Positions 26,831 through 38,629 of a DNA stretch of 44,845 nucleotides are shown here, one piece after another. The stretch comes from Candidatus Magasanikbacteria bacterium RIFCSPLOWO2_12_FULL_43_12 (GTDB taxonomy: Bacteria > Patescibacteriota > Patescibacteriia > Magasanikbacterales > UBA922). The translations under genes were made by a program, and so were the position numbers. The first letter of the stretch is position 1. Each line of letters begins with the position of its first letter. The notes below the pieces were generated by a model. The model searched no databases. It saw only the letters and a list, made by a program, of their open reading frames with translations, and was not told where the DNA came from. The DNA is taken from positions 25,859 to 70,703 of the forward strand of contig MFQN01000033.1 in the NCBI GenBank assembly GCA_001783065.1. The letters are read 5' to 3'.

Positions 26831-27592
26831 TTATTTTTTAACTGTCTTTACCACCTCTGAAGTGATTTTTTTTGCTTCTCTTGCCGCCTTCTCCGCCACA
26901 CCGACGCTCCTGAATATCAGACCACTAAACTGATGAATTATAGCAGAAAACAGGATGGATGTCAAGATGAAGAGGGATTTTACCATCGGCAGTATCCACA
27001 ACACGACAAAGCTGAAGGCCGGAAAAAGTATGAAATAAGCCAAATCCGCTTTGCTTATTGTGAATTTTTTCTTTCGATAATCAAAATATATTTCCGCCAA
27101 TAATCCGATTGCCACAATACCAGGCCAAACAATATCGTGGGTACTGCCCAAATTAAACCCATAAAAATCCGTGTTAATTCTCCCGGGAAAATCAACCCAA
27201 GCGTACAAAATCTTCATCATTTTATCTCCGGTGATTCCACGTAAAAATACCTGATAAAGCAAAATCAACACTAAGACTTGCACACCCAGAGAAACCAACT
27301 TGCTCCAAGGCCGCACTTTTTTTTGCTTTAAAATCCTGCGCACCTCCTCTTTCTTCAAAAGATTATCATTGTGAAACTCTTTATCTATGCGCTTTACCTC
27401 ACGCACTAATTCCTCCTCACCACGACGATTTTTCTCCGTAACCAAAGTAAACGGCAAAAGAATCAATCGCAGAATGATGGTTAAATAGACTACCGCCCAA
27501 CCTAAATTTTGATCAGCCCAGTTATTATAAATCCAAATCAAAACATTAAATAACGGCTGATAAAAATAATCATGCCAGATTATTCCAAACAT
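26831..27592 (-). CDS. yidC: Membrane protein insertase YidC/Oxa1 family
   Basis: 253 aa, the short Gram-positive-like form. 'NWGWAVVYLTIILRLILLPFTL'-type first core helix (here NLGWAVVYLTIILRLILLP) carries the conserved basic residue R42 of the hydrophilic groove. A charged cytoplasmic hairpin follows (EELVREVKRIDKEF...), and then three or four more membrane helices. It has no large periplasmic domain. It is in a unit with the SPFH gene. Neither rnpA nor rpmH is next to it here. Confidence 0.85.
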   Translation of the reverse strand: MFGIIWHDYFYQPLFNVLIWIYNNWADQNLGWAVVYLTIILRLILLPFTLVTEKNRRGEEELVREVKRIDKEFHNDNLLKKEEVRRILKQKKVRPWSKLVSLGVQVLVLILLYQVFLRGITGDKMMKILYAWVDFPGRINTDFYGFNLGSTHDIVWPGIVAIGLLAEIYFDYRKKKFTISKADLAYFILFPAFSFVVLWILPMVKSLFILTSILFSAIIHQFSGLIFRSVGVAEKAAREAKKITSEVVKTVKK

Positions 27593-27644
27593 ATTATTGA
27601 TATTATAGCAGACGGCTTAAAAAACCGCAATACAAACTCCCCTA

Positions 27645-27673
27645 TTGACAAAAGACAATTTATCAACTATCAT
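27645..27673 (+). promoter_or_regulatory. Plus-strand promoter of a structured intergenic RNA
   Basis: -35 TTGACA (27645-27650), 17-bp spacer, -10 TATCAT (27668-27673). It points away from yidC into a gene-free stretch that ends in a terminator on the same strand. Confidence 0.75.
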
Positions 27674-27679
27674 TACCCT

Positions 27680-27941
27680 ACCCTCCGTCCAGTCTTGGCA
27701 GACGGAGCAAACCCATCCATCCATTTAGCTTCGTCTGCCACTTTTGACCCCGTCCGCTCTCCTGACTATTAGTGATGTAATTCGGGTTTGACTCCTTACC
27801 CGGAACGCATCCGATACGATGTCTGGAGAGCTCTTACCCCCGGCGCGAGGGATCCCATAGGATCGACATTCCTATGGTAATCCCTCGCGCCACCTTCCAC
27901 CCTTACTATTCAATCACTCCGCCTTACGGCAGGGTTTTTTT
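27680..27941 (+). ncRNA. Candidate ~260-nt structured non-coding RNA
   Basis: No CDS explains 27593-27939. The predicted transcript contains a competing pair of hairpins (CTCCGTC 27683-27689 / GACGGAG 27701-27707, versus GGCAGACG 27697-27704 / CGTCTGCC 27732-27739). A closing stem GCTCTCC (27756-27762) / GGAGAGC (27825-27831) encloses GATG/CATC and a 7-bp hairpin at 27781-27804. Next comes a 20-bp hairpin at 27842-27891 and a terminator at 27918-27941. I find no RNase P, tmRNA, 6S or SRP signature. The family is unknown. Confidence 0.65.
27918..27941 (+). terminator. Terminator of the 27680 RNA
   Basis: The stem TCCGCC / GGCAGGG with one bulged A and a TTAC loop is followed by seven T (27935-27941). 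The T-run overlaps the stop codon of the convergent permease gene. Confidence 0.75.
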
Positions 27942-29190
27942 ATTCCCGACGCAACGCGTCAATCGGATTCAACGCGGCCGCTTTGCGCGCCGGGTAAAGG
28001 CCGAAAATAAAACCGATTAACCCGGAAAAACCGACGGCGATAAAAATTGAAAAAAGAGATATGTGATATATCCATGCCAAACCGTAAGAACGAGCTAAAA
28101 TCGCTACTAAATAAGCCAGTATAGCGCCAAATATTATACCCACCACACCGCCGCTGAATGTGATTAAAAGCGCTTCAAATAAAAACTGCCACAAAATCGC
28201 CCTGCGGTCGGCGCCGACGGACTTCCGCAAACCGATTTCAAAAGTCCTTTCCGCGACTGAAACATACATTATATTCATGATTCCCACGCCGCCGACAGCA
28301 AGCGAAATACAGACTAAGGCTACCAGCAGAAAAGTAATGCCTCGAACAACATTGCCTAACATGTCAGCCGCCTCATCCATGGTGTTGACCGCGAAATCGT
28401 CTTTATCAAAATCATCGGTAGCGATGCCGTGTTGTTCGCGCATAATCCGCGTCAAATCTAACTGCGTCTGTTGTCCTTGGCTTGGATCATTCATCTTAGC
28501 CACCGCGAAAGTTACGTAATCAACGCCCATAATTCGTTTTTGGAAAGTGCGCAAAGGCACGTAAATCATATCATCCAAATTAAAGAAAAACGCCGAGCCG
28601 CGCTCTGCCAAAACGCCGATCACCCGATATTTTTTTCCTTTAATGGTAATAAATTCGCCGACCGGATCAGAACCATTAAATAATTTCTGCCAAGCGCCGT
28701 GCCCCAGCGCCGCCACGCGCGACAATCCTTGTTCTTCTTCTTTGGTAAAAAATCTTCCCTGCTCTATTTCCGTACCATCAACCAGCGGCGCTTCAAAACC
28801 CGCGCCCATCAAAAACATTTTTTTTAATTCATCGCCATAACCGACCGCCTCTTGTCCCATCATCGCGCCATAGATATATTTAATATTTTTATTTTCTCGC
28901 ATTGCTTCCACGTCATCATTTTTAAAAGTGGTAATCGTATTCCCCATCGCCATACCGGAAGCGTTTTCATTGGAAGTCTTGCTCACATTCGGAACTTTAA
29001 CCTCAATCTCAATCACGCCCGCTCCGAATGTGTCCAGTTCGCTTTTCACTACCCCATCCAAACCATCGCCGGCGGCAAAAACCGTTACCACCAGCGCAAT
29101 GCCGATGCTGATAGCCAAAACAGTCAAAATGGTTCTGGCCTTCTGTTTAAGCAAAGATTGATAGGCAAAGAAAAAACTTGATTCATTCAT
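27940..29190 (-). CDS. MacB-type ABC transporter permease (second copy)
   Basis: 416 aa. An N-terminal membrane helix (about 17-40) is followed by a large extracytoplasmic MacB_PCD domain (about 45-270) and three C-terminal helices with the FtsX signature: 'GGVGIMNIMYVSVAERTFEIGLRKSVGADRRAI' region and the final 'GFIFGLYPARKAAALNPIDALR'. It overlaps the preceding permease by 8 bp. With the ATPase (30503) and the adaptor (33093) it forms a MacAB-like mechanotransmission export system, probably for peptides, lipids or lipoproteins. Confidence 0.9.
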   Translation of the reverse strand: MNESSFFFAYQSLLKQKARTILTVLAISIGIALVVTVFAAGDGLDGVVKSELDTFGAGVIEIEVKVPNVSKTSNENASGMAMGNTITTFKNDDVEAMRENKNIKYIYGAMMGQEAVGYGDELKKMFLMGAGFEAPLVDGTEIEQGRFFTKEEEQGLSRVAALGHGAWQKLFNGSDPVGEFITIKGKKYRVIGVLAERGSAFFFNLDDMIYVPLRTFQKRIMGVDYVTFAVAKMNDPSQGQQTQLDLTRIMREQHGIATDDFDKDDFAVNTMDEAADMLGNVVRGITFLLVALVCISLAVGGVGIMNIMYVSVAERTFEIGLRKSVGADRRAILWQFLFEALLITFSGGVVGIIFGAILAYLVAILARSYGLAWIYHISLFSIFIAVGFSGLIGFIFGLYPARKAAALNPIDALRRE

Positions 29191-31276: not shown

Positions 31277-31412
31277 CGTCCCGGTCAAGGGCAGTAGGTG
31301 TAGCTAGTGGGACCGAGTGAATCAATTCACCCGGGTAACACAACGGATTCCCGCAAGTTTCTTTTGTCACCACTCGCTACAGTGGAAAACGCCTCTCTTC
31401 CACCCCTTGGCC
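31277..31412 (+). ncRNA. Structured 5' domain preceding a tRNA-like gene
   Basis: A 9-bp stem GGTCAAGGG (31283-31291) / CCCTTGGCC (31404-31412), with one G-U pair, closes a domain with three internal hairpins: GTGAA/TTCAC (31317-31330), CGGG/CCCG (31332-31353) and CCACT/AGTGG (31370-31385). An alternative stem GTCCC (31278-31282) / GGGAC (31309-31313) competes with the closing stem. No protein frame is evident. It ends 4 nt before the tRNA-like structure. The family is unknown. Confidence 0.55.
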
Positions 31413-31416
31413 ATTT

Positions 31417-31506
31417 GCGGAAGTAGCTCAGTAGTAGAGCACCGAGCATGGGACTAAACACCCCAGCCAAACTCGGAGGCCGGAGGTTCAATTCCTCCTT
31501 TCCGCT
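31417..31506 (+). tRNA. tRNA-Gly-like gene with a 25-nt anticodon loop (intron or tRNA mimic)
   Basis: Acceptor GCGGAAG (31417-31423) / TTTCCGC (31499-31505), D-stem GCTC/GAGC, anticodon stem CCGAG/CTCGG (31442-31446, 31472-31476), 5-nt variable loop and T-arm GGAGG-TTCAATT-CCTCC (31482-31498) are all perfect. Acceptor start GCGG and U73 fit bacterial tRNA-Gly. The anticodon loop (31447-31471) has 25 nt instead of 7 and contains a TGGG/CCCA mini-stem, then GCCAAA. No way of excising a single block gives a 7-nt loop with U33. The D-loop reads AGTAGTA, lacking the usual GG. CCA is not encoded. It may be an intron-bearing tRNA, a decayed tRNA, or a tRNA mimic. Confidence 0.6.
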
Positions 31507-31523
31507 CCTCGCTCTTTCTTTTC

Positions 31524-31551
31524 GCCCGGACTTACACTCCGGGCTTCACTT
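31524..31551 (+). terminator. Hairpin after the tRNA-like gene
   Basis: The stem GCCCGG (31524-31529) / CCGGGC (31539-31544) is followed by TTCACTTTAT. The T-run is weak, so it is a possible terminator only. 31552-31646 is AT-rich with a TATCTCC microsatellite and no gene. Confidence 0.45.
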
Positions 31552-31646
31552 TATAAAAAATCGTCAATAATTTAGCAATCGTCAATAATATTCTTTAAAA
31601 TTTTGTTAATATTTCAATATCTCCTATCTCTATCTATCTCCAATTA

Positions 31647-38336: not shown

Positions 38337-38341
38337 AGTGA

Positions 38342-38370
38342 ATTATACTTTAATTCTTAAACTGTGTCAA
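38342..38370 (-). promoter_or_regulatory. Perfect consensus promoter of the metK leader
   Basis: Minus strand: -35 TTGACA (38370-38365), 17-bp spacer, -10 TATAAT (38347-38342). Transcription should start near 38336, at the foot of P1. Confidence 0.88.
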
Positions 38371-38389
38371 TTATGCGCTAAAAATTCGT

Positions 38390-38585
38390 TAGTCCCGTCA
38401 GGGACTTTAGATAGTAGCCAGGCACTTTAGTGCCTGGAAAAACATTCAATAGAATTCAAAAGTCCCAGAGGGACGACACATCTGTCTTGTCTGCCGTCCC
38501 TACGGGACTTGTGTATTGAAATAATCATTTTCCCCAGGCCTTAAAAGGCCTGGCTACTATCAAACGCCCCTACGGGGCTAACAAT
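38390..38585. repeat. Cluster of REP-like palindromes
   Basis: Six small palindromes: AGTCCCGTCAGGGACT, CCAGGCACTTTAGTGCCTGG, AGTCCCAGAGGGAC, GTCCCTACGGGAC, CCAGGCCTTAAAAGGCCTGG and GCCCCTACGGGGC. The outer parts GATAGTAGCCAGGC and GCCTGGCTACTATC also pair with each other, making one composite inverted structure. There is no gene. Such arrays are often spread by REP-associated tyrosine transposases; none is in this window. Confidence 0.7.
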
Positions 38586-38629
38586 AGATGCTGGCATCAA
38601 AAATTAATTTCTTCCGGCGAATACTTACT

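Follow-up and report, generated by a model that had tools for sequence, protein, structure and literature searches.

The stretch of DNA analysed here (the window; 44,845 nucleotides from an uncultivated groundwater member of Candidatus Magasanikbacteria, Patescibacteria, with a genome of 1.05 Mb) contains, between yidC and a gene for a MacB/FtsX-like permease, a spacer that folds strongly and in which no protein gene is evident (27593-27939), as a preliminary description had already stated. This raises a question that can be asked in two parts: does the spacer hold an RNA gene, and what kind of RNA would it be? To the first part it can be answered that the spacer is very probably a real candidate RNA gene, as far as the sequence allows one to judge, and the proposal of a structured RNA gene, unassigned to any family and equipped with a promoter and a terminator of its own, is supported. 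For the second, the preferred reading, to which we give a probability of about 0.6, is that of an independently transcribed, structured non-coding RNA of about 260 nt, restricted to one genus of Magasanikbacteria and acting in trans through a protein or RNA partner. No earlier account of such an RNA turned up in literature searches, nor any of small RNAs in Magasanikbacteria.

The transcription unit and its predicted fold

The yidC gene (60KD_IMP, PF02096) lies to the left of the RNA and is transcribed leftwards from 27592, and the permease gene (MacB_PCD/FtsX), to its right, is transcribed leftwards as well and ends at 27940, so the RNA is oriented divergently from the former and convergently with the latter. 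The near-consensus plus-strand promoter announced in the preliminary description is there (Table 1) and is one of the two best in a promoter scan which, taken as a whole, gave five promoter-like sites against 4.1 expected by chance; at the equivalent position, the sister species of the same genus (G002) carries TTGACA-18-TATTAT. The T7 terminator can also be found, although its hairpin is weak and absent from the list of a strict terminator scan; in the sister species the terminator hairpin is local and more distinct (ACCCG...CGGGU), and T6 comes after it. The minus-strand promoter of yidC is located downstream of the whole RNA structure, and its arrangement recurs in the sister species and in G006 (TTGCGG-17-TATACT). 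Since yidC thus has its own promoter beyond the structure, the RNA is to be regarded as a separate unit, divergent from yidC.

Table 1. Features of the spacer between yidC and the permease gene, in window coordinates.
Feature	Position	Strand	Remarks
yidC promoter, TTGCGG-17-TATAAT with extended TG	27602-27630	-	-10 box ends 9 nt before the yidC ATG; read from the sequence
RNA promoter, TTGACA-17-TATCAT	27645-27673	+	-35 at 27645-27650, -10 at 27668-27673; 11 of 12 consensus bases
Structured RNA, about 260 nt	27680-27941	+	z of -9.96 and homologue in G002; likely start near 27680 from promoter spacing, end at the T run
Early (nascent) hairpin, CTCCGTC/GACGGAG	27683-27707	+	Mutually exclusive with hairpin I
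Hairpin I, 13 bp, C-rich loop	27696-27740	+	G002 has a hairpin of different sequence in the same place
Linker CCACTTTTGACCCC, 14 nt	27738-27751	+	Identical in G002
Hairpin II: GCTCTCC/GGAGAGC, GAC/GTC, GATGT/GCATC, TTCGGGT/ACCCGGA	27756-27831	+	Apical 7-bp stem, 10-nt loop
Hairpin III, 20 bp (12 + 8 bp)	27842-27891	+	From the fold and the comparison with G002
Intrinsic terminator, weak hairpin and T7	27919-27941	+	Hairpin CCGCC-UUAC-GGCAGG (27919-27933, bulged A), T run 27935-27941; overlaps the stop codon of the convergent MacB-like gene

The predicted layout consists of three strong hairpins in a row, followed by the weak hairpin of the terminator, and it includes the 20-bp hairpin and the GCTCTCC/GGAGAGC module that had been pointed out before (hairpins III and II, respectively). 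Hairpin II is capped by a 10-nt loop, TTGACTCCTT, and the linker that precedes it is predicted to be unpaired, save for its first three nucleotides, which form the closing pairs of hairpin I in the fold of the window RNA. On the plus strand the folding energy is -107 kcal/mol, compared with -63 for dinucleotide shuffles (none of 200 was as good), and the minus strand of the same region folds less well (z of -5.6). Nevertheless, z is below -8 in 34 of the 186 scored intergenic regions of the host genome, and many of these 34 are, by eye, tRNA regions or repeat palindromes. In this organism a strong fold is therefore weak evidence by itself: it is conservation that carries the case for the RNA.

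Conservation in the sister species

Among 59 genomes compared by DNA similarity, the RNA was found only in that of the window and in the sister species, where it occupies the same slot. The alignment of both shows that the promoter, the linker, hairpins II and III and the terminator are kept, and that hairpin I differs in sequence. All 34 core pairs stand in the two species in spite of seven changed pairs (one changed on both sides and six through G-U), hairpin II keeping its 22 pairs, five of them with compatible changes, and hairpin III keeping its lower 12 bp with one two-sided change, while its upper part has diverged and is still paired. The eight stem substitutions are all compatible with pairing, an outcome that random changes of equal number and kind reached in 1.3% of trials (P = 0.013), and when the window RNA was mutated neutrally to a similar divergence, none of 300 products folded as well as the real RNA of the sister species. 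When the same columns are read as the minus strand only 30 of the 34 pairs are kept, and because the G-U changes break pairs on that strand, the RNA is assigned to the plus strand. Conservation of the unpaired stretches equals that of the stems: besides the linker, nine of the ten positions of the apical loop are identical.

These figures on pairing and covariation rest on two sequences, the same two from which a covariance model was built. Across 46 genomes of the family the model had two hits, both within the genus, and in the window genome it gave one full match plus a weak second row that corresponds to the reverse strand of hairpin III, which is palindromic enough for its own reverse complement to match it; the RNA is thus single-copy in its host. 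The pairs are kept in the sister species, but homologues are limited to two species and covariation is thin. An exact 18-mer from the conserved loop arm was found, among all GTDB contigs, in the sister species and in three hits from unrelated taxa, which are taken as chance, and it is absent from the viral contigs searched. As for known families, Rfam 15 has no match at gathering score for the region 27400-28150, only chance hits appearing at an E value of 10, and none for the homologue of the sister species. Loss of pairing in relatives and membership of a known family, the two findings that would have spoken against the proposal from the start, are hence not what was seen, within the two sequences at hand.

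Taken together, a promoter-like site in both species, a plus-strand fold whose pairing is kept by compensatory or compatible change, a terminator, a single copy, no coding capacity and no Rfam match argue for an independent RNA gene. Could the transcript act instead through a small protein? The two species share no conserved open reading frame. Could it be a switch, as the preliminary description suggested on account of its two mutually exclusive 5' hairpins? Both hairpins are indeed predicted: in simulated nascent transcripts of the window the early hairpin is best at lengths of 28-54 nt and gives way to hairpin I from 56 nt, and the same exchange occurs at 72 nt in the sister species. However, the early hairpin exceeds shuffled sequences in only one of the two species (p = 0.017 in the window, p = 0.23 in the sister species), the long-range stem that closes the window RNA has no counterpart in the predicted fold of the other species, and the locus shows no output for a switch to act on, for instance a plus-strand gene further along. 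For these reasons no regulatory switch is inferred and the idea of a switchable fold is not well supported; ordinary co-transcriptional refolding would explain the competing hairpins, according to the folding model.

Possible roles and rival explanations

How might such an RNA work? It would be transcribed and act in trans as a stable RNA; hairpin I would form co-transcriptionally in place of the early 5' hairpin, and a protein or another RNA may bind to the conserved, largely unpaired elements that the three hairpins expose, namely the 10-nt loop UUnACUCCUU and the 14-nt linker CCACUUUUGACCCC.

The composition of these elements suggests a regulator that masks ribosome binding sites by base pairing, as RsaA and RNAIII do with their C-rich parts (PMC3961350). 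The apical loop, UUGACUCCUU, has CUCCUU in common with the 3' end of the 16S rRNA (GGATCACCTCCTTT is present in the host genome), it is nearly invariant in the sister species and the linkers are C-rich, so that an unpaired C-rich seed is indeed available. The resemblance to these two RNAs of S. aureus (Firmicutes) extends to the several hairpins, the C-rich unpaired stretches, the anti-Shine-Dalgarno-like loop and the independent transcript; it is not one of homology, and the host of the window RNA, in contrast, barely uses Shine-Dalgarno sites. A Shine-Dalgarno-like motif precedes one of the 26 genes of the window and 61 of 653 genes genome-wide, against 46 in shuffles, and when five unpaired segments were tested for duplexes with 764 gene starts, they performed no better than shuffled segments, so complementary ribosome-binding-site targets like those of RNAIII and RsaA did not emerge. 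After these motif counts and the target test with shuffled controls, masking of Shine-Dalgarno sites was dropped as the leading explanation and is considered improbable, which in turn favours a stable trans-acting RNA with a protein or another RNA as partner. Concerning translation in the host more generally, Shine-Dalgarno motifs are nearly absent upstream of its genes though the 16S tail keeps CCTCCTTT, and -10 boxes are frequently found 5-9 nt ahead of the ATG, in agreement with many of the mRNAs being leaderless.

A feature without RNA function, be it a hairpin-rich spacer, a repeat palindrome or a cluster of terminators acting passively or at the DNA level, would be in keeping with the many strongly folding, often palindromic spacers of this genome and with the near-palindromic hairpin III. 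It is nonetheless unlikely, given that the element is single-copy, that its G-U changes suit a plus-strand RNA only and that linker, loop and promoter are conserved in both species. It is far less probable that the structure belongs to the minus strand, whether as an attenuator or leader for yidC or as an element between cistrons that follows macB: on that strand the region does follow the stop codon of macB and precede the start of yidC, yet the -10 and -35 boxes of yidC come after the structure, right in front of the ATG, and the minus-strand fold is the weaker one and loses pairs in the sister species. Nor does the plus strand have the layout of a cis-regulatory leader or riboswitch, since the gene that it reaches is on the minus strand and is entered from its 3' end.

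It is equally hard to credit that the window RNA is a housekeeping RNA, 6S or SRP, that has diverged. RNase P (C20; below the family cut-off, E value 2e-16) and tmRNA (C29) are encoded elsewhere in the host genome, and the absence of any match to 6S RNA (RF00013) or small SRP RNA (RF00169) in the window or the rest of that genome would leave two vacancies to fill. The window RNA, however, matches neither model even at an E value of 10, has neither the single rod of 6S nor a GNRA-capped S domain of the SRP type, and the GTPase motifs of the SRP were not found in the host either. 6S RNA shares with it a similar size class, a structured nature and an independent gene, but is one long rod with a central bubble, whereas the window RNA has several hairpins. 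Model searches and GTPase motif searches thus gave no support to a divergent SRP or 6S, and the lack of likeness to RNase P, tmRNA, SRP and 6S noted in the preliminary description is borne out. In a relative (G004), a 6S-like sequence (L065 430-545; 37.9 bits, below the family cut-off) lies at a different locus, just upstream of a prfB-like gene. A separate observation is that, in about 97% of the host genome, one model and simple motif searches found neither small SRP RNA nor Ffh/FtsY-like GTPase motifs, YidC being present.

The place upstream of yidC in related bacteria

Is the window RNA alone in its position? A survey of the slot in 40 family genomes with this yidC revealed in several of them a long structured stretch upstream of the gene that has no sequence relationship to the window RNA and often comes with a promoter and a terminator (G022, G031, G059, G034, G021, G015, G007, G006 and G005, with a tRNA in G003), and in many other family genomes yidC almost abuts the next gene. 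The plus-strand z values of these stretches range from -2.7 to -12.4. In a filters-off search no credible match was found among the other slot RNAs, model R1 detecting no kinship, and on the other side of yidC long structured spacers are fewer, in a comparison that is small and not a proper control. The loci concerned with other structured RNAs are L033, L034, L037, L048, L049, L055, L061, L062 and L030; several have a tRNA or tRNA-like unit and then a terminator, the slot of G022 has a tRNA-Thr, three hairpins and a terminator, and that of G005 (L030 430-790) shows two similar modules of about 160 nt by eye.

The window RNA looks like one of several fast-changing RNAs at this slot in related bacteria. 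A bolder version is rather unlikely: the position upstream of yidC would be a conserved site for an RNA gene that is exchanged, or changes in sequence almost past recognition, from genus to genus, in many cases with a tRNA or tRNA-like unit placed ahead of an ornate RNA and a terminator. The window RNA would then be one form of a single fast-evolving functional RNA. Ornate RNAs such as GOLLD, ROOL and OLE are also strongly folded, intergenic and of unknown function, and GOLLD and ROOL are often found near tRNAs (PMC12286853), as several slot RNAs of the relatives are; in contrast to these three, the window RNA has only about 260 nt, no Rfam match, no joined tRNA and no phage context that could be seen.

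Other structured stretches were noticed along the way. At 31300-31560 of the window, beside the gene for the CCA-adding enzyme, lies a second one, missing in the sister species; its tRNA-like element with an enlarged anticodon arm (31417-31506) scores 55.9 bits with the Rfam tRNA model and is not called by ARAGORN. Hairpin clusters with the GTAGCCAGGCACTTTAGTGCCTGG motif (window 38340-38600; L087 14756-14986; L093 3413-3652; L079 5170-5808) are Acido-Lenti-1 according to Rfam in the window and in L079 and look like a multicopy palindromic repeat, and L071 4923-5131 is a Group I intron (RF00028, 57 bits).

As regards the organism, the standard base-pairing mode of small RNAs would be hard to sustain with so little use of Shine-Dalgarno sites in a genome of about 1 Mb, which is why the partner of the window RNA would be informative. 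A recurring RNA seat by yidC and the CCA-adding enzyme gene would, in addition, be a testable place in which to seek fast-evolving RNA genes.
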